Part shown: in pieces, positions 10,006 through 33,879 of the stretch | Layout: every line of letters begins with the position of its first letter | Numbering within the stretch: position 1 is the stretch's first letter | Virus record (IMG/VR): IMGVR_UViG_3300044701_004478 | Location: 1-34,755 of that record | DNA: 34,755 nt | Direction: 5' to 3' (one strand) | Source of the DNA: a virus | Translations under genes and position numbers: made by a program | The notes under the pieces: model-generated | What the model was told of the DNA's origin: nothing | Databases searched by the model: none | What the model saw: only the letters and a program-made list of their open reading frames with translations

Positions 10006-10024
10006 CTAGGTGCGCAGCACCTAG
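10006..10024. promoter_or_regulatory. Perfect inverted repeat at the terminase stop codon
   Basis: The arms CTAGGTGC and GCACCTAG flank a 3-nt loop, and the repeat includes the TAG stop of the terminase gene. There is no U run on either strand, so it is not a classic intrinsic terminator. It could be an operator, an RNA processing site or a stabilising hairpin. It shares the CTAG core with the upstream gene elements. Confidence 0.4.
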
Positions 10025-12300
10025 TAGGTGCGGAAGCGGGAGCCGCCCGTGGCCCAGCGTTTCAGCGGGGCCAGGTACGTCAGGGCGTAGCCCGCGGCGT
10101 CGACGGGGTGGCTTGGGTCGTCCAAGCCGCTGCCGCCTTTTTCGGGCTTGCCGTCCTTGCCGTATGCCTGTTGCTCCAAAGACTTTTGGAGGTACTTGCA
10201 GCGGGGGCTTACGTAGAGGCGGTCGCTCATCAGAAGGACGTTGACGGCGTTGACGCGGTCCTCGATCGCGGGGTTGGCGCTTTGTTCCTTCAGCACGAAG
10301 CCGCCGCGGCGCAAAATGCTCAGGTCGCTTTCTTTGGCGTTGGTTGTGGTGCGTTGGCGGGAGGCGGCGTCCGGGATCACCACGACGTCTCCGCGTTCCA
10401 GCTGGGCCGGATAGGTGGCGCGGAGCTTTTCGACGATGGCGGGGGTGTCGCGGACGATGTGCTCCTCCACAAAGTGGAAGGTGTCGCCGCGGCGAACCAG
10501 GACCTCGATGAGGCAGTTGCCCACGTTGAGGTCGATGCCGCAGTACACACGATCGTCGTCTTCGACGACGGCATCGGTCCAATGGCGGTCGCGGTCGTAG
10601 TCGGGGTACACCGAGGTGTTGGCGAGGTTGGTGAATTCGCCCTCGATGTAGGAGCGAATTAGCTGGGGTGGGAAATTCGCGTACAGCGACTCAACGAACC
10701 CTGCGGGTAGGTGGGGGTTATCCGTCGTCTTCGCTTTGATGAGACGTTTGTCTTCGGCAGCGCCTTCAACGAAGGTGCGATAGCACCAGCGGTAGCCTTC
10801 TGGCGTGGAGGCCACGGCGAGCTGGGGCTTCACGCCGCCGCGCAGACGCGCCAGCACCATCTCTGAAGCCTTTTGCGCTACGTCGGCAGGGCTAGTGTCG
10901 ATCTCGTCGATCGCTGCAAAACTCAGGTTCTGGCCTCGGATGCGGTTCCACGTTTCCGTGGCGCGGCACAAAATGGTGGTGGGGCCGTCGGGGAGGTACA
11001 GCGTGTACTCCGGCTGGGGCGAGACGCGGAAGTCGTGCTGGATCTGGTGCTGTTCCAAGAAGTCGTCGAAACTTCGCATCCAGACGTCCCGGATCATGAT
11101 GTGCGTTGGCTCAAAGACAGCGCCGACAGTGCCGGGATTGTCCATTGCCATGACGCAGACCTTGGCGCAGAGGCTGTAGGTCTTGCCCGAGTTGTGGTGG
11201 ACTACGCCATTGGCGACGTAGTGGTTCCACAGGGGCACGTGGAGGTCAAAGTATTCGTCATGACGCGCAAAGGTTATGTCTTTTATACGTGACCAGGTAA
11301 AGTAGGAAGACTTGGGGCTTGTAGATGGGTCGGTTGCGGGTTCGGCGGGAAACCATGCCTCAGGAGAAGTGGCACCAGATCCTGAAGGACTTTCACTACG
11401 GCTATAGCCGGGGGTGTGTGGCAAAGCGGCACGGGGTATCGCTAAGTGCGCTGGGCGGGTGGTTGGCAGATATTCCGGGGCCGTCGAAGCATGTGACGGG
11501 GTACGAACGGCTCTTAGACCTAAAAGAGTCGGTGCTGCGGGACTACCTGCAGGAGGGGGTGGGGATGCGAGAGTTAAGACGGCGGTTTGGCGTCCATGAG
11601 GGGACGGTGCGGTCGTTCTTGCAGGCGCAGGGCGTCCTGAAAGAGCGGGGCGGTCAAACTGGGGTGCAGAATCCACAGTCCAAGGCGCGGGCAGTGTCGC
11701 CGCAGGACCGTGATTCAGGCAAGTACTGGGCCCGAAGAGTCGTTGTGCAAGCTCTTGGGCAGCCACTTCCGCAGGGGTGGGTGATCCATCACATGAACGA
11801 GTGCCCCACAGATCAAACCCTGACGAATCTGTGGCTGTTTCCGTCGGCGCAGGCGCACTCGTTGTTCCATCAACGGCAACGAGAGAACCTGACGACAGGT
11901 GGCCAACGGTCTGCCAGCCGTCTGGCGTCAGACAACGGTGGTCTTTGGTTGCCACAAACTCTTGACCGGATTCAAGACGCACCCGGTACAACGCTGCAAA
12001 GCCTTTGCGATACGCAGGCGTAGCCCAAGCTGGACCGTAGAGCGTGTCGACGCGGATTGGGTGGTGCGTTAAGTCGCGGATTGGGGTGCCGTTGATCTCG
12101 ACTTCGCCGCCCAAGCAGCCGAAACCGCCCAAAAAGCCGACGATCTTGGCGTCTTTTTCGTCGACAAAGGCGCGCTGGGCAGGAAGTAAGCCGTTGACGA
12201 GCTGGGTGTAAAGCGCGTCGTAGCTCAAGTCGCAGCGCGTTGAGAGCTGGATTGCCGGTTCCAGCAATTTGCCGCCGGGAATCACGCCGAGCAAAGACAC
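10021..12300 (-). CDS. terL: Large terminase subunit precursor interrupted by an intein
   Basis: The 759-aa precursor should give a 450-aa terminase after removal of residues 62-370. The spliced ATPase domain has Walker A GGFG|SGKT (residues 58-61 plus 371-374), Walker B FAAIDEID (461-468) and a coupling segment VASTPEG (497-503). The C-terminal nuclease carries acidic residues at GIDLN (D590), IPDAA (D643/644) and HPVDAAGY (D733/734). The protein packages DNA into the procapsid through the portal. The GTG at 12300 is used as start. Until the intein is spliced out the P-loop is split, so ATPase activity should depend on splicing. Confidence 0.9.
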   Translation of the reverse strand: MSLLGVIPGGKLLEPAIQLSTRCDLSYDALYTQLVNGLLPAQRAFVDEKDAKIVGFLGGFGCLGGEVEINGTPIRDLTHHPIRVDTLYGPAWATPAYRKGFAALYRVRLESGQEFVATKDHRCLTPDGWQTVGHLSSGSLVAVDGTTSAPAPTETATDSSGFDLWGTRSCDGSPTPAEVAAQELAQRLFGPSTCLNHGPAATLPAPWTVDSAPQFDRPALSGRPAPARTTAPSPHGRQTAVLTLASPPPPAGSPAAPTLLGLRAVRTPSHASTAPEYLPTTRPAHLAIPRAALPHTPGYSRSESPSGSGATSPEAWFPAEPATDPSTSPKSSYFTWSRIKDITFARHDEYFDLHVPLWNHYVANGVVHHNSGKTYSLCAKVCVMAMDNPGTVGAVFEPTHIMIRDVWMRSFDDFLEQHQIQHDFRVSPQPEYTLYLPDGPTTILCRATETWNRIRGQNLSFAAIDEIDTSPADVAQKASEMVLARLRGGVKPQLAVASTPEGYRWCYRTFVEGAAEDKRLIKAKTTDNPHLPAGFVESLYANFPPQLIRSYIEGEFTNLANTSVYPDYDRDRHWTDAVVEDDDRVYCGIDLNVGNCLIEVLVRRGDTFHFVEEHIVRDTPAIVEKLRATYPAQLERGDVVVIPDAASRQRTTTNAKESDLSILRRGGFVLKEQSANPAIEDRVNAVNVLLMSDRLYVSPRCKYLQKSLEQQAYGKDGKPEKGGSGLDDPSHPVDAAGYALTYLAPLKRWATGGSRFRTY
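11191..12117 (-). other. Intein within the terminase P-loop (309 aa)
   Basis: The intein starts at Cys62 of the precursor (CLGGEVEING). Block B shows GQEFVATKDHRCLTPDGW with the T-x-x-H motif. Blocks F and G read DEYFDLHVPLWNHYVANG and VVHHN. It ends in His-Asn and the +1 extein residue is Ser371, all as needed for standard class 1 splicing. There is no in-frame LAGLIDADG or HNH domain. Residues about 146-330 are a Pro/Ala/Ser/Thr-rich linker with no recognisable fold, and it lies antisense to the endonuclease gene at 11325-12023. Junctions were assigned from motifs and from restoration of an intact GxGSGKT. Confidence 0.92.
11325..12023 (+). CDS. HTH-HNH homing-type endonuclease, antisense inside the intein
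   Basis: The 232-aa product lies wholly within the intein on the opposite strand. It has two helix-turn-helix-like segments at about residues 28-48 (GCVAKRHGVSLSALGGWL) and 78-104 (GVGMRELRRRFGVHEGTVRS). An HNH core follows at about residues 151-183, with His155/His156, Asn168, and His178 and His182 in AHSLFH. This is the arrangement of small HNH homing endonucleases that recognise DNA through added HTH modules. The C-terminal 50 residues are antisense to the intein N-terminal splicing domain and look non-family-like. A second possible start is the ATG at 11355. No strong Shine-Dalgarno sequence was seen. Confidence 0.85.
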   Translation: MGRLRVRRETMPQEKWHQILKDFHYGYSRGCVAKRHGVSLSALGGWLADIPGPSKHVTGYERLLDLKESVLRDYLQEGVGMRELRRRFGVHEGTVRSFLQAQGVLKERGGQTGVQNPQSKARAVSPQDRDSGKYWARRVVVQALGQPLPQGWVIHHMNECPTDQTLTNLWLFPSAQAHSLFHQRQRENLTTGGQRSASRLASDNGGLWLPQTLDRIQDAPGTTLQSLCDTQA

Positions 12301-12366
12301 AAGAGCCGGGGGTAGGGGGCGGCGTGGGCAGTCTACCTAGCTAGAAGAGGTGGGGGTAGGGGGCGG
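12301..12366. repeat. G-rich direct repeat just upstream of the terminase start
   Basis: GGGGGTAGGGGGCGG occurs at 12308-12322 and again at 12352-12366, exactly 44 bp apart. The match extends upstream into AAGAG at both places. The second copy continues into further G-runs to 12381 (GGGGG, GGGGG, GGGGG, GGG, GGG), a strong G-quadruplex candidate on the plus strand. It may be an operator, packaging-site or replication element; this is not proven. Confidence 0.6.
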
Positions 12367-12528
12367 GGGAGGGTGTCTGGGTAGGTAGGGATTGGTGGTG
12401 GGTTTGACCTCGGAGTTGCGGGTATAGCGCTTAGGCCAGAGATTCGTTGGCGTGGGGGCAGGGCGGCCCCCGGTGGGAGGGTAGCGGCGCTGATACGCTG
12501 CGCCGCAACGCGTATACCAGTGTGGCGA

Positions 12529-19859: not shown

Positions 19860-22106
19860 TTACACGTTGTTGATGCCCTCGGCTTTGGAGCCGACCATGG
19901 CGTTGGCGGCGTCGCGGATCACCTGGCGGGGGCGGTAGTGGGTGTCATAGCGCCCAGTTATCCGCGACCTCATCTTCCGCGACTCCAATACTGGTCCCGT
20001 CATCTGGTCCAGATAGCGGCGCAGGGTGCGGGAGTTGAACCCCAGATCCAGCTCCTTCGCCCACTCCGAGGCGATGCGCCAGTCCTCATGGCGGACGGCG
20101 CGGAACCGGTGCGACAGCATGTCCAGCGGACCACCGGCTTCGGGGTTCCCCAGCCTGAACTGCCAGTAGCCCTGATACGCGTTGCGGGTGACGGCGATGC
20201 GCTTGTCGCGGTAGCCGGTGCGGCTTTTCTGCATCACCAGATGCCGCGTGGGGCCGATCTCTGGCATCGGTTGGCCGCGGCGCCATCTCGCCATCTCCGG
20301 TGGGTAGTACACCCACATCTCTTCGGTGGCGGCCTTCACCTGCTCTGAGCCGCTGAAGCGGGTGGGCTCGTCGCGGGTGGTGTGGTGCAGGATCAAGTGC
20401 GCACAGGCCGGCCACGCCACACCGTTGTATTGCACCAGCTGGCGGATGGGCCGGCCGTAGCTCCCGTCGCCGATCTTGGCGTCAGTGCCCATCATCGACG
20501 TCAGACAGTCGTAGATCACCAGATCGGGGGCGCAGTCCTGCAGCGTCTTCACGATGTTCACCATTCGGTCAAACGTCACGGCGCTGCAAATCTTCAGGCG
20601 GCCGTAGCTGTTTTCGATGCCCTCCAGCGCGAGGTCGCGCACCATGTCCAGGTCGCTGCAGTCGCTGGTGAAGATCAGCACCTTTCCCGGCTTCTCAACG
20701 CTGTGGCGGGTGCCGTCGATCTCAATCGGCAGCCCGTGCAGCACCCGGTTGGCCAAGAAACACGCCAGCGTTGTCTTGCCGCTGTGGCTGGCCCCAGCAA
20801 CCAAATGCACCCGCCGGCCCAGAAAGCCGTCGATCACGTCGGTGGCGATGTTGTCCTGACGCATCGTGTTGCGGATGTCCTCAATCATTCGGGGGCCCTG
20901 CCGCTCCACTTGCCCCAGAAACTGCTCCAGCACTTCCTCGCGGATGCGCTCGGCGTCAATGCCGTACTCCTTCCGGGCCCTGCCCAGCAGGTACGACGTC
21001 ACGATCGAGTCGTTCTCGTGCTTGATGTACTCGTTGATGATCTTGCGGTAGCCCTCGGCGCCGACCTGTAGGTCCACCGGCGGTATCGCCCACTTCGGCG
21101 GCTCCCAGCCCGCTTCGCGGGCAAAGAAGAACACGCTGGCAATGCGGCTTTTCTGCTCTTCCGCGACGCGGCTTTGGGCGAGGGACTTCAGCGTTTTGGC
21201 GCAGTCAGTGCGGTCGCCCCACTCATTCTTGGCGTCCCAGTCGGAACCTTCGAGCATCTCGGTGGCCAGCTCTAGGCCGAACTCGTTGAGGATGGCGCAC
21301 ATCACCCGCCGCACCTTCTCATACGTGCCAGAGCCTTTGCCTTGGCGGTTGGGGCAGTAGGGCAGCGCCAGCTCCACCAGCTGCTGACGCTCATACGCCG
21401 TCAGGCGCTCCCATGGCGTGCCGTCGTCTTCGCCGGAGCGGAGCCGCTCCTGCACCGTCCTTTCTTTTGTGGCATTGGCTTGGCGCAGGATGCCCTCCAG
21501 CAGCCATTCCGGGGCCTCGGCGACCGCGACTTCGCTGGGGGCCCTACCCTCCATCCACCGGTAAAACAGCGGTGCCTGGTGGGATGACTCCGGGTGGTCG
21601 CCAACGATCACCGCATGGCGACCGGCGCCTGTCGTGTTTTGCCAGATCGCTTCCAACACCACATTGCCGAGGCTGGAGCGCCAGCTTGCGCTGCGGTTGG
21701 CGAACTGGGGCCACCACTGAGGCGGCACCGAGAAAAACAGCTTGCCGCGGCCCAACTTGCCGCTCAGGTTGGCCACCGTCACCGGCAGTTCGCTCGGGTA
21801 GCGGTTGAAGTGGCTCCGAAAAGCACGGACTGATTGGGAGCCGGTGCCGTCGAAGTCCAGCACCAGCAGGCCGTTGGACTCCTCGCCGGTAATGACGCCG
21901 AGGCCGATGGTCTTGCGATGCTTCCACCGCTCATTGGCGTTGGGCGTGGCATTGATGCGAATCACCGAGTCGAGGTTGTGGCCCTGGCCCGGTTGGTTCC
22001 AGTTCTCCTCAAAACATCGCTTGGCGTCGCCGTCGCCGCCGGTTAACGCAAAACGCCAGTGCGCTGGTACGCCCTGCAGGAGCGCCGTCTGGTCCTGTCT
22101 CAGCAT
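19860..22106 (-). CDS. Primase-polymerase/helicase fusion, replication initiator (748 aa)
   Basis: The N-terminal domain has LLVLDFDGTG (D84-x-D86 acidic pair) and GRHAVIVGDHPES (around residue 163), the catalytic signatures of archaeo-eukaryotic prim-pol primases. The C-terminal domain is a RecA-like ATPase with Walker A VAGASHSGKTTLACF (residues 436-450) and Walker B DLVIYDCLTSM (528-538). An arginine-rich end follows. This architecture is typical of phage primase-helicases that synthesise primers and unwind DNA at the fork. The ATG at 22106 has no clear Shine-Dalgarno sequence. A polymerase gene is divergent from it. Confidence 0.85.
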   Translation of the reverse strand: MLRQDQTALLQGVPAHWRFALTGGDGDAKRCFEENWNQPGQGHNLDSVIRINATPNANERWKHRKTIGLGVITGEESNGLLVLDFDGTGSQSVRAFRSHFNRYPSELPVTVANLSGKLGRGKLFFSVPPQWWPQFANRSASWRSSLGNVVLEAIWQNTTGAGRHAVIVGDHPESSHQAPLFYRWMEGRAPSEVAVAEAPEWLLEGILRQANATKERTVQERLRSGEDDGTPWERLTAYERQQLVELALPYCPNRQGKGSGTYEKVRRVMCAILNEFGLELATEMLEGSDWDAKNEWGDRTDCAKTLKSLAQSRVAEEQKSRIASVFFFAREAGWEPPKWAIPPVDLQVGAEGYRKIINEYIKHENDSIVTSYLLGRARKEYGIDAERIREEVLEQFLGQVERQGPRMIEDIRNTMRQDNIATDVIDGFLGRRVHLVAGASHSGKTTLACFLANRVLHGLPIEIDGTRHSVEKPGKVLIFTSDCSDLDMVRDLALEGIENSYGRLKICSAVTFDRMVNIVKTLQDCAPDLVIYDCLTSMMGTDAKIGDGSYGRPIRQLVQYNGVAWPACAHLILHHTTRDEPTRFSGSEQVKAATEEMWVYYPPEMARWRRGQPMPEIGPTRHLVMQKSRTGYRDKRIAVTRNAYQGYWQFRLGNPEAGGPLDMLSHRFRAVRHEDWRIASEWAKELDLGFNSRTLRRYLDQMTGPVLESRKMRSRITGRYDTHYRPRQVIRDAANAMVGSKAEGINNV

Positions 22107-24819: not shown

Positions 24820-26115
24820 TCATATATGAAGCTGAATTCGGCTTACAGCCTGATCCGCCACCTCAACCTGCTGCACCAGCTGTAGGAACAATTGCCGAAG
24901 CTCCTCAGACCCCAGTTGTGACAGTGTCATTGGGCGACGAAGCGCCGCCAGCACCTGCGGGTCAACCGGCTCACGATTATGCAGATTCTGCAATTTCAGC
25001 CGTTTTGCCGTGATCGCCTCGTCAAGGTCAGGGTCGTTCAGGGCCTCAAGGCGCTCGATGGAGTCGCGTAACAGCTGGGCCTCGGGGGGTTCGACCGCGA
25101 TCAAGGTGGCAAGGGATTCGGCGCGGTCGCGGATCGCCCCCAGCACGGCTTCGCGGATCACGCTCTCGTGAGTGCTCTTGTACTGCTGCGGGCAGCCAAA
25201 GTGGCGGCACAACAGCGCCGGAATTGTGCGGCCGCCGGCATAGGACAAATGGCGCCCGCAGCTCCCGCAACGGCATAGCCCAGTCAGCAACTTGGGCTTG
25301 ATTGTTACGTTTTGCCCCCACATTCTCCGGTTGTCCTTTAGCGCTTGCTCAGCTCTGCTGTAGCACTCGCTAGTCATCAACGGCTGGTGCGTGTTCCACA
25401 CCACACGAGCAAACTCCTGGTTGCGCGTGGAGAAATAGCCGAGACCGCCGCGTAGTACAGGGTTCTTTAGCCAGCCTCGCAGCGTTTTTGGGCTGTGGAG
25501 CGGGATGTCGCTTTCGCCCTCAGCCGCCCATCGGCGCAAGGCCCCTGATAGCCGCCACTTGCACTCGCTAAGGATGCGCAGCATCTTCTGGGCCCGTGGC
25601 CATTCGCGTGGGTCTGGCTCGTAGCCGCTCTTGTCCTCTTTAAGGCGGTAGCCCCATGGGGCGCGGCCGCGGATAGGGCGGCCCTTCAGCCGCAGCTGCT
25701 CCAGGTTGCTCTTGATTCGCATGGACAGCATCCGGCTCTCCATCTCCGCCATCGTCGTCATGAAGCGGCTCATGGCAAAGCCCTGGGGCGTCTCGGACTC
25801 GATCGTGCCCCCGTCGATGGCCGTCAGCGTCACCCCGCGCTTGGCGGCAAACGCGATGGCGGCGTCCGTGTCCGCTGCATCGCGCCCCAGACGGTCTATG
25901 CGGGTGATCACGACCTCTGAGACCTGGCGACGGTCGATCAGGTCCAGCAGCTCCATGTAGCCCGCCCTGTCGCTCTCACGGCCGCTCTGGACGTCTTGGA
26001 TGATTCGCTCGACGCCAGCAGCCTCGATCCGGGCCCGCTGGCTTTCCAGCGCCGCTAGCTGCTCACCCGTTCCCGTCGAGACCCGGATGTAGCCCACACG
26101 CGGTAGAAGACCCAT
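24820..26115 (-). CDS. Large serine recombinase (integrase/excisionase type)
   Basis: The protein is 431 aa. The N-terminal catalytic domain begins RVGYIRVSTGTGEQLAALES (nucleophile Ser14) and contains VVITRIDRLGRDAADTDAAI and MAEMESRMLSMRIKSNLEQL. The recombinase domain includes GRAPWGYRLKEDKSGYEPD. A zinc ribbon shows CRCGSCGRHLSY and later CRHFGC. A coiled-coil end follows. These are hallmarks of large serine recombinases, as in temperate phage integrases and cyanobacterial XisF-like excision enzymes. It would integrate or excise the phage at att sites, which were not identified here. Transcription reads into the terminator at 24414. Confidence 0.88.
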   Translation of the reverse strand: MGLLPRVGYIRVSTGTGEQLAALESQRARIEAAGVERIIQDVQSGRESDRAGYMELLDLIDRRQVSEVVITRIDRLGRDAADTDAAIAFAAKRGVTLTAIDGGTIESETPQGFAMSRFMTTMAEMESRMLSMRIKSNLEQLRLKGRPIRGRAPWGYRLKEDKSGYEPDPREWPRAQKMLRILSECKWRLSGALRRWAAEGESDIPLHSPKTLRGWLKNPVLRGGLGYFSTRNQEFARVVWNTHQPLMTSECYSRAEQALKDNRRMWGQNVTIKPKLLTGLCRCGSCGRHLSYAGGRTIPALLCRHFGCPQQYKSTHESVIREAVLGAIRDRAESLATLIAVEPPEAQLLRDSIERLEALNDPDLDEAITAKRLKLQNLHNREPVDPQVLAALRRPMTLSQLGSEELRQLFLQLVQQVEVADQAVSRIQLHI

Positions 26116-27685: not shown

Positions 27686-28711
27686 ATGCCTGCTGAATTC
27701 GGGTCCTCGGCTATGGACCGCTATCTCAACGACATCGCCCGCTACCCGCTCATGAGCCCTGACGAAGAAATTCGCCTTGGCAAAATCGTCAGAGCCTCAA
27801 TGGCGCTTAAAGCGGAGGGGCGGGAGTTGACCGCTGCAGAGCAGCGCGTTGTTCGCCGCGGCGATAAAGCAGTGCGGCGCTTTGTTGAGGCCAATCTCCG
27901 GCTCGTCGTTTACATCGCCAAGAGGTACGCGGCGCGTAAGCCCCATGCCATGGACATGCTCGATCTGGTGCAGGAAGGCGCTATCGGTTTGGTGCGGGCG
28001 GCGGAGATGTTTGACCCCGAACGCGGGTATAAGTTTTCGACATACTCGTTTTGGTGGTGCCGGCAAGCCATGAGCCGGGCCCTGCAGAATCAAGAGCGCA
28101 TGATTCGGCGGCCCTGCACCGTCGCCGAATTGGCAGGCAAGCTCAACAAGGCGGCACAGCAAGAGACGCAACGGCTGGGGCGCAGTCCCTCGACGGCGGA
28201 ATTGGCCGCAGCACTCAAGGTCAACGAGGAAGAGATTCGCACCCTCATGGAACGGGGCGGGACCGTGGCATCACTCGACGCCATGATCCACAACATGGAG
28301 GACAAGTCGCTCATCGAGACCATGGCGGACCCACGTTCCATGAACACCGAGGAGCAGGAGCTTGAGATGGATCTCCAAACTCGGATGCCGCTGGTGCTCT
28401 ACACCATGGAACAGCTACCCGAGAAGGAGCGCGTCTTTATCCAGAAGCGGTTTGGCATTAACGGCTATGTGCCGCATACCTATCAGGAGATCGCGGTGAC
28501 TAATGAGATCAGTCGGGAGCGGGTGCGGCAAGTCATTGACACCGGCTTGCGCAAAATCAGGTATCAAATGTCGAAGCAGGGGCAACTTCTAGATGAAGAC
28601 CGTAAAGACGCAGGATCTGGCGCAGCAGCCACGGCACCCGCACCGAACCGTCGTCAGCAACCTGCACCTGCGCCGGCTTCGGTGTGGGGTCGTCTGGCGA
28701 CAGCAGCATGA
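27686..28711 (+). CDS. Sigma-70 family RNA polymerase sigma factor
   Basis: The 341-aa protein shows region 1.2 (DRYLNDIARYPLMSPDEEIR) and region 2 with RRFVEANLRLVVYIAKRYA, MDMLDLVQEGAIGLVRAAEM and YKFSTYSFWWCRQAMSRALQ (-10 recognition). Region 3 follows (QETQRLGRSPSTAELAAALK), then region 4 with LPEKERVFIQKRFG and TYQEIAVTNEISRERVRQVI (-35 recognition HTH). It is a group 2-like, cyanobacterial-type sigma, unusual for a phage to carry in full. It could redirect the host RNA polymerase to phage promoters. The last 35 residues are Pro/Ala/Gln low complexity and lie antisense to the next gene. Confidence 0.9.
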   Translation: MPAEFGSSAMDRYLNDIARYPLMSPDEEIRLGKIVRASMALKAEGRELTAAEQRVVRRGDKAVRRFVEANLRLVVYIAKRYAARKPHAMDMLDLVQEGAIGLVRAAEMFDPERGYKFSTYSFWWCRQAMSRALQNQERMIRRPCTVAELAGKLNKAAQQETQRLGRSPSTAELAAALKVNEEEIRTLMERGGTVASLDAMIHNMEDKSLIETMADPRSMNTEEQELEMDLQTRMPLVLYTMEQLPEKERVFIQKRFGINGYVPHTYQEIAVTNEISRERVRQVIDTGLRKIRYQMSKQGQLLDEDRKDAGSGAAATAPAPNRRQQPAPAPASVWGRLATAA

Positions 28712-32228: not shown

Positions 32229-32359
32229 TAGCTGTTGACAATCTTTGCGATAACTCTAGCCGCACTGTCTTGCAGCAACTTGGCATAGCGGTTGGCAGCC
32301 GTCTGGATCTTGAGCTGCTGGCTCAAGCGGCGTGGATCTGGGGGTGGGGTACGGGTCAT
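32228..32359 (-). CDS. 43-aa basic protein in the tail operon
   Basis: The ATG at 32359 overlaps the previous stop (ATGA), and its TAA overlaps the next ATG (TAATG), so it is held between two coupled genes. The sequence, MTRTPPPDPRRLSQQLKIQT then AANRYAKLLQDSAARVIAKI, is basic and helical. A longer frame to 32428 is ignored. Function unknown. Confidence 0.65.
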   Translation of the reverse strand: MTRTPPPDPRRLSQQLKIQTAANRYAKLLQDSAARVIAKIVNS

Positions 32360-33879
32360 GGCGTGAGGTCGGCAAGAGTAAAACCTAGAGCTAACGCTTG
32401 CTGTTGGCAGTATTTTGGTTCGCCCCAATCGGTTGTGACGCAGAAATATTGATCAGGCCCAGCGCTGCCGCTGTCATTGCTTTGCACCCCGGCGACCGTT
32501 GGCATTGCTTGTGCATTATTTGCAAACGACAGCGTTATAAACGGCTTCCAGTAAGCAGCATCTGTTGGTGGCACGCGAGGCGAAACGCCTTGATACCAAT
32601 CATACGCAACTGGCATCGCTGTTTGCGCTTGATAAAACGGGACCTGAACTGCCATTGGGCTTGAATATAAGTTAGAATAGCTGGCGACATAATAGGCCAA
32701 CGGTTTTTTGATCTTGCTTTGGTCTTGCGCGTAAGAATTAGCAAACCAAGAAAACCATGAGCTAAAATCGTTTGTAACTACTCCAGTCGCGTCTGTTGAA
32801 TTAAAATAATTTTGCCAGTTTGTGGTGGCGTTTGTTGCGCGAGAATAAACTGCCGGCGCTCCAAACATTAAAGCGCTGTTGTTTGACAACGATCCGCCCA
32901 CGGTTGGCATTGCGTTTTGCCACCAGCCGTTTAACCACCAAAGCCGAGGGCCACGACTGGTGCGATTGAATGCTCCTTGAACAAAGTCAAACGTAGTAAC
33001 TGAGCCCCAATCGTTCAGCAACGTATATGCTGGGTTAGGCGTTGTTCTTTGCTCTAAAACTGTGCCGATTCCAGTGTACCGTCGTAATGTTTTAGAGGTT
33101 TGGACAAGGCCAGGAAACTTGTTATCAAAATAATCTTTTGCCGCTTGTGGAGTGGTAATTTCCTTGACAGAGCTTTTTGAGACTAAAAAGCTCTTGTAAA
33201 TAGTTGTTATCGGTGTTGCCTGGTTTAAGGTGACAACGTAATTTGGGATAGGCGGCGTTGAGAACGTCCAGCAAGCCTTTTGATAAGCCAGTACAAACCG
33301 AAACGTAGCGATGAAAACGCCTTTGCCGACTGGAAACAAATCAAACACTACGTTATTTATCCCTGTGTCAAGCCTGTATGTTTCATTGCTGGGAGGCAAT
33401 GATGTGTTTTCGCCAGGGGTAAATCCAGCCGGCGCTTTAAGATCAGAGCTGTTTACAATACTGTGCCAGTATGTGCCGTCGGTAGAGCTGATGTGCAAGC
33501 TGCGCCCGCTATTTGTTCCTGTATATGTTGATTCAAGTGCTCTAATAATTGTGCCGGTAAAATCACTAGATATATTTGCGTACCAATTATTTGAGCCGAT
33601 GACAACCCAGCTCATGGTGACTGTTTCTTTGTTGCCAGAACGGAAGGCAGCGGGCCTTGGTTGTGTCAAGGCTTGCCGAGCGCCAATTCCGTACAGCAAC
33701 GATCCATCAGGGGCTGTGCCCTCAGCGGCCAAAGCCGCGTTGCGTTGCTCTTGCCCTTGCGTTTGAATCCGCTGCTGGCGTTCTTTCTCTAGCTGGGCTT
33801 GCCGCGCAGCCTGCTGTTGCTGCTTGGCTTTCTCAGGCAAGCCGCCCGACCCAACCGTGACGTTGATCTGGGTGCTCAT
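32356..33879 (-). CDS. 507-aa structural/tail fibre-like protein, AT-rich body
   Basis: The N-terminus is a Gln/Ala/Arg-rich coiled coil, about residues 14-50 (KAKQQQQAARQAQLEKERQQ). A large beta-type body rich in Asn, Ser, Thr, Tyr and Trp follows (VVIGSNNWYANISSDFTGTI, RTSRGPRLWWLNGWWQNAMP, SWFSWFANSYAQDQSKIKKP). The first 80 codons are GC-rich like the neighbours, while roughly 32400-33650 is clearly AT-richer. This suggests a replaced host-contact domain on a conserved N-terminal anchor. Virion function is inferred from position and composition. The ATG at 33879 is 2 nt after the previous stop. Confidence 0.65.
   Translation of the reverse strand: MSTQINVTVGSGGLPEKAKQQQQAARQAQLEKERQQRIQTQGQEQRNAALAAEGTAPDGSLLYGIGARQALTQPRPAAFRSGNKETVTMSWVVIGSNNWYANISSDFTGTIIRALESTYTGTNSGRSLHISSTDGTYWHSIVNSSDLKAPAGFTPGENTSLPPSNETYRLDTGINNVVFDLFPVGKGVFIATFRFVLAYQKACWTFSTPPIPNYVVTLNQATPITTIYKSFLVSKSSVKEITTPQAAKDYFDNKFPGLVQTSKTLRRYTGIGTVLEQRTTPNPAYTLLNDWGSVTTFDFVQGAFNRTSRGPRLWWLNGWWQNAMPTVGGSLSNNSALMFGAPAVYSRATNATTNWQNYFNSTDATGVVTNDFSSWFSWFANSYAQDQSKIKKPLAYYVASYSNLYSSPMAVQVPFYQAQTAMPVAYDWYQGVSPRVPPTDAAYWKPFITLSFANNAQAMPTVAGVQSNDSGSAGPDQYFCVTTDWGEPKYCQQQALALGFTLADLTP

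Follow-up and report, generated by a model that had tools for sequence, protein, structure and literature searches.

Can the splicing of an intein and its homing be carried by two proteins encoded on opposite strands of the same DNA? This question is raised by IMG/VR virus record IMGVR_UViG_3300044701_004478, analysed here over its positions 1 to 34,755 (34,755 nucleotides, referred to as the window). In this DNA, the gene for the terminase large subunit (TerL) is interrupted by an intein, and an HNH-type gene lies on the other strand of the intein DNA. We conclude that this is probably a mobile intein with a homing endonuclease that is expressed on its own from an antisense gene. Sequence comparison shows the anatomy of the locus, its conservation, selection on both frames, an occupied/empty polymorphism, transfer as a unit and loss of the endonuclease. 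The features of the locus are:

10021..12300, minus strand: terL, the terminase large subunit precursor with its intein; an open reading frame (ORF) matching PHROG terminase families and Pfam Terminase_6N
11191..12117, minus strand: intein of 309 amino acids (aa) in the TerL Walker A P-loop, with Cys1, block B TxxH, C-terminal HHN and +1 Ser
11191..11324, minus strand: C-terminal splicing region of the intein, blocks F and G, free of overlap with the HNH gene
11325..11865, minus strand: intein linker antisense to the HNH core, rich in Pro, Ala, Ser and Thr, stop-free and mostly predicted to be disordered
11325..12023, plus strand: putative antisense HNH homing endonuclease gene of 232 codons, with two helix-turn-helix (HTH) units and an HNH unit
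11866..12020: dual-coded stretch, in which the C-terminal tail of HNH faces the N-domain of the intein with block B (TKDH); nucleotide divergence is strongly reduced relative to the HNH core

The intein and the gene opposite it

The 759-aa terL precursor matches the PHROG terminase families (E 8.7e-29) and Pfam Terminase_6N (E 1.4e-7). Its Walker A motif is split after GGFG by the intein (GGFG/C...HHN/SGKT), and the predicted spliced TerL is a 450-aa protein with Walker A GGFGSGKT. Pfam Intein_splicing matched the intein with an E value of 4.2e-8 at 33.6 bits, slightly below the cut-off of 35.8. Residues C1, T57, H60, H308 and N309 are invariant in 11 inteins, and the +1 Ser is present in all. 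In the predicted model, the HINT parts are confident at residues 1-86 and ~270-309 (predicted local distance difference test score, pLDDT, >90); residues 130-270, nearly all of them opposite the HNH core, are predicted to be disordered (pLDDT ~30). The best Foldseek match of the model was 6frg, the Ssp DnaB mini-intein (E 4.5e-7), and the closest solved structures are the Ssp DnaB, Npu DnaB and Mtu RecA mini-inteins. Pfam detected no endonuclease domain in the intein's own frame, unlike in a full-length intein with an in-frame endonuclease, and TerL is a continuous ORF in the window and its relatives rather than a gene fractured by a split intein.

An intron, or a non-splicing insertion hiding an HNH gene as in the ShiLan domain, could resemble an intein incidentally, and there are phage genes with an HNH gene concealed in a different reading frame (PMC11855218). 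The full set of conserved intein blocks and the HINT fold with its PDB intein matches make this explanation highly improbable. An RNA intron or group I ribozyme was rejected, as positions 10800-12400 gave no Rfam match up to E 0.1.

The plus-strand ORF runs from an ATG start to a TAG stop, wholly within the intein DNA, and its product gave both HNH_3 and HTH matches. AlphaFold predicted two three-helix HTH units and a beta-beta-alpha unit at residues 153-190 (mean pLDDT 77), the latter consisting of strands 153-156 and 169-172 and helix 175-190. The HNH residues H155, H156, N168, H178 and H182 are invariant in 12 relatives, and Pfam HNH_3 matched 12/12 members (best E 4.5e-8). A VIA-align fold search, which barely covered the HNH part, gave no solved relative of the protein as a whole; HTH domains filled its list (best Z 6.1 over 48 residues). 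An extra N-terminal HTH unit of ~50 residues is found in the HNH proteins of relatives L003, L004, L005, L006 and L011-L017 and is not found in the window, L001 or L002. The first-pass annotation, made from the window sequence alone, had proposed an intein at 11191-12117 with full splicing blocks and no in-frame endonuclease, and a 232-codon plus-strand gene inside it with two HTH segments and an HNH core. The same intein boundaries and the same ORF were found again, the absence of an in-frame endonuclease agrees with Pfam and with the predicted disorder, and the domain assignment is supported by the predicted fold, the HNH_3 match and the invariant residues.

Conservation and selection on the two strands

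Four IMG/VR scans with the HNH protein or its alignments all converged on 13 further contigs. In 13/13, a TerL intein occupies the same P-loop site, its frame is open and the HNH gene runs antisense within it; the relative frame of HNH and intein is identical in all 13 and the window. L012/L013 and L014/L015 are copies, giving 12 distinct sequences including the window, and L017 is cut by the contig end. The relatives' HNH proteins are 43-63% identical to that of the window, and their TerL exteins share from 34% to 100% identity with one another. The carriers are mostly uncultivated, cyanophage-like viruses. In the isolate phages Brochothrix BL3 and Oceanotoga UFV02, which have distant inteins, no antisense gene is annotated at the matched place. 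A more distantly related intein (37% identity) is present in another viral contig (L111, 3001-3312).

HNH third codon positions face intein second positions in the shared relative frame, and the two readings therefore predict different substitution patterns. In the HNH core of the L011/L012 pair, the differences per HNH codon position were 13, 7 and 89 (chi-square P 1e-25). Omega (the ratio of nonsynonymous to synonymous divergence, dN/dS) was 0.023 in the HNH frame, 6.3 for the same DNA in the intein frame and 0.04 for the intein outside the overlap. The corresponding values were 39, 26 and 84 differences and omega of 0.16, 1.4 and 0.38 for L003/L004, and 51, 42 and 92 differences and omega of 0.23, 1.5 and 0.11 for L001/L002. 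Across pairs, omega of the HNH core was 0.02-0.3 in its own frame and >1 for the DNA read as intein linker, and the intein frame outside the overlap gave 0.04-0.38 in the closer pairs. The omega >1 of the linker is a by-product of constraint on HNH, and positive selection is not claimed.

These data bear on the idea that the HNH frame is itself the by-product, an open frame antisense to a long-linker mini-intein in GC-rich DNA. A second antisense frame is indeed also long and open in the GC-rich members. However, the idea is contradicted by the codon-position test, with its low own-frame omega and third-position excess, and by the invariant catalytic residues and the presence of HNH_3 in every member. 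In addition, a long linker always coincides with the HNH gene, and the intein relatives without HNH are only 149-159 aa. Together, these observations leave it almost no probability.

The openness of the intein frame was examined by back-translation, in which the synonymous codons of each HNH protein were re-drawn from the TerL codon usage of its own phage. The intein frame contained 0 stops in 12/12 sequences, compared to an expected mean of 3.4-13.1; the other two antisense frames hold 2-21 stops. The probability of an open intein frame ranged from 0.023 down to <5e-5 per sequence, values that are indicative since codons were treated as independent and the sequences are related. The 50%-GC members L011, L012, L016 and L017 are by themselves decisive that the intein frame is kept open. 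Because 13 further contigs share the layout and back-translation almost never leaves the intein frame open, the antisense layout is not due to chance; a chance antisense ORF is ruled out by the conservation, codon-position and stop-avoidance tests.

The dual-coded stretch comprises the final 46-63 codons of HNH, which face the N-domain of the intein with its block B TxxH. Here, L011 and L012 differ at 3/153 nucleotides, compared to 109/690 in the core (Fisher P 3e-7). Divergence was also lower than in the core in three other pairs (Fisher P 6e-6 to 1e-10). For L003/L004, omega in this stretch was 2.0 in the HNH frame and 0.16 in the intein frame, a pattern that suggests stronger constraint from the intein frame.

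Homologous inteins with a conserved antisense HNH frame and dN/dS on both strands were among the checks proposed by the first-pass annotation. The former are provided by the 13 further contigs, in which both frames are open; the latter indicates purifying selection on the HNH core in its own frame and is below 1 for the intein outside the overlap in the closer pairs.

Empty sites, transfer and loss of the endonuclease

Intein-free TerLs were found by a P-loop pattern scan. The empty site in L050 is flanked on both sides by DNA 95.6-96.9% identical to that of L001 and L008, with the intein exactly absent, and the TerLs of L001 and L050 share 99.1% amino-acid identity. Likewise, L058 lacks exactly the intein of L016, with flanks of 95.4-95.6% DNA identity and TerLs of 99.3%. 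A search of four whole empty-site records with the HNH alignment gave no match. When the non-overlapping parts were compared, HNH core and intein co-diverged (r 0.77, Mantel P 5e-5), and the correlation with TerL was weaker for both (HNH 0.51, intein 0.43). L014 and L016 are only 35% identical in TerL but 80% identical in the intein and 62% in the HNH core. The co-divergence and these identities show that intein and HNH are transferred as a single unit from one diverged TerL gene to another.

When the intein alignment was used as the query, ten contigs were found in which a mini-intein of 149-159 aa occupies the same position in terL. The mini-intein of L030 (3565-4011, also in L031) carries on its antisense strand MADRVSSQERWIIADLHRQ joined to YHVQQSEILASGGLIPASQTASENGGLWLPE, a relic in which the N-terminal end of HNH is fused to its C-terminal tail by an internal in-frame deletion. 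In L032, L035, L036 and L037, the antisense strand of the mini-intein contains stops and the HNH core is missing. Three mini-intein records were searched with the HNH alignment; two gave no match, and L033 matched only in the tail opposite block B. In L033 (642-1106) and L032 (4001-4477), the N-terminal part closely resembles the inteins of L011 and L016, which bear HNH, but the similarity ends abruptly; these are probable recombinants of endonuclease-bearing and endonuclease-free inteins. On the intein tree, the HNH-bearing/mini-intein label needs three changes. The mini-inteins, the relic and the empty sites fit a homing cycle, with its phases of invasion, loss of the endonuclease and empty sites, and the HNH-less mini-inteins are its expected endonuclease-free state. 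Antisense stops alongside intact splicing blocks, named by the first-pass annotation as evidence against its proposal, thus do occur in four relatives, but only in mini-inteins without the whole HNH-coding stretch.

HNH genes frequently invade by themselves. The HNH gene could be selfish in its own right and home into the endonuclease site of a mini-intein rather than into empty terL; the intein would be only a safe haven for it and would move by other means. In line with this, terL also harbours mini-inteins of this family at the same position, and L032 and L033 appear chimeric. We nevertheless regard it as unlikely, as HNH diverges in step with the intein, the two move jointly from one TerL lineage to another, and both are missing as one unit from near-identical phages. 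Moreover, no free-standing close relative of HNH was found in viral contigs, plasmids or a scan of genome contigs, nor, at useful identity, in phage isolates.

The reading of the two strands as a splicing protein and a homing endonuclease, put forward by the first-pass annotation, is supported by the conservation of both frames in 12 distinct sequences with opposite selection signatures, by the HINT and HNH fold predictions, by the precise empty sites and by the movement of the pair as a unit. On the sense strand, TerL would be translated through the intein, and the HINT domain (blocks A, B, F and G) would excise the intein and restore the Walker A P-loop. The stretch opposite HNH would be an unstructured, sequence-tolerant linker where inteins normally hold the endonuclease domain. 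We propose that selection acts in two ways: it holds this frame free of stops, since TerL has to be made as a full-length precursor, and it preserves the protein sequence of HNH, on which the spread of the element depends. From the antisense strand, the HTH-HTH-HNH protein would be separately transcribed and translated. It would bind intein-free terL P-loop DNA, carried by a phage that is co-infecting or resident, and cut it. With the occupied allele as the template for repair, the intein and the endonuclease gene would be copied as a pair, and later loss of the endonuclease would leave mini-inteins.

Several points weigh against a functional antisense endonuclease. The window HNH protein scored below the Pfam cut-off (21.3 vs 24.8 bits) and is without an N-terminal HTH present in other members. 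The position pattern favours the intein frame as the stronger constraint on the dual-coded stretch, and the HNH C-terminal tail may therefore be overprinted sequence of little function, kept mainly via the intein frame. A promoter scan gave no sigma-70-like match before the HNH ATG, and there is no clear Shine-Dalgarno site. Splicing, antisense transcription and HNH expression, the target site and cleavage are all steps that we infer.

Expression signals and known systems

A TATAGT/TATACT hexamer is located ~33 nt upstream of the HNH start in 9/12 members and in the L030 relic. At the equivalent position (~11285-11297), the window itself reads TAAAGT, and the codons of the hexamer differ in the mini-inteins other than the relic. 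The hexamer is a possible -10 element, which we offer as a lead only. TerL would normally be a late gene. The antisense HNH could follow a different timing, as would befit an enzyme required to act on incoming DNA. The window also encodes a phage RNA polymerase sigma factor (27686-28711, plus strand; PHROG 351, E 7e-67), which could bear on transcription of antisense or late genes. A large serine integrase or invertase-type recombinase (24820-26115, minus strand; PHROG 95, E 2.2e-47) suggests that the phage is probably temperate. Two minus-strand ORFs, 19860-22106 (748 aa) and 32356-33879 (507 aa), had no PHROG match at 1e-5.

Phage genes fractured by split inteins, with a free-standing endonuclease gene in between and the two ORFs joined by trans-splicing, were reportedly described by Dassa et al. 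in 2009. Such genes are said to share a separate endonuclease gene placed where an intein would hold its endonuclease domain; there, host gene and intein are split, whereas here one continuous TerL ORF is overlapped antisense by the endonuclease gene. TerL inteins are common in mycobacteriophages, with no antisense gene mentioned (PMC5050341). Canonical full-length inteins resemble the present one in HINT blocks A, B, F and G, the TerL ATPase-domain site, extra sequence between the N- and C-terminal splicing parts, occupied/empty polymorphism and mini-intein derivatives (PMC5050341). Their endonuclease, however, is an in-frame domain; here it is a separate gene on the opposite strand, and the in-frame stretch is a predicted disordered linker. 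Antisense homing endonuclease genes are established in nuclear group I introns, for example I-DsqI, for which a separate transcript was shown (PMC9548176). These are likewise self-splicing elements with an endonuclease gene opposite the host-gene strand, but they combine a ribozyme that needs no open protein frame with a His-Cys box endonuclease in eukaryotic ribosomal DNA, whereas two protein-coding frames overlap here. In non-splicing insertions of phage methylases such as the ShiLan domain, a phage HNH gene also occupies another frame of an insertion kept open in the host-gene frame (PMC11855218). That gene is on the same strand (third frame) with no detectable splicing element, in contrast to the antisense gene within a complete intein.

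No report of an endonuclease gene antisense inside an intein was found in open-licence full texts, in line with the first-pass annotation, to which no established class with this layout was known. A 2020 review lists three intein configurations only, full-length, mini and split (PMC7765530). It is likely that the present element represents a further natural configuration: an intein with an overlapping antisense homing endonuclease gene. Each strand of the same mobile DNA would give a functional protein, block B would be dual-coded, and the timing of the endonuclease would be uncoupled from expression of the host gene. Such genes are likely missed by automated annotation because they overlap a longer ORF in antisense. 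The locus provides a clean case of natural antisense dual coding with selection measurable on each strand, and suggests that an intein tolerates ~150-200 residues at the endonuclease site that are constrained mainly to stay open. As occupied, empty and endonuclease-free alleles exist in close phages, the homing cycle is directly testable. If the reading is correct, it would add an intein configuration that divides splicing and homing between two genes overlapping on opposite strands, and expression of the endonuclease would be separated from that of the host protein.
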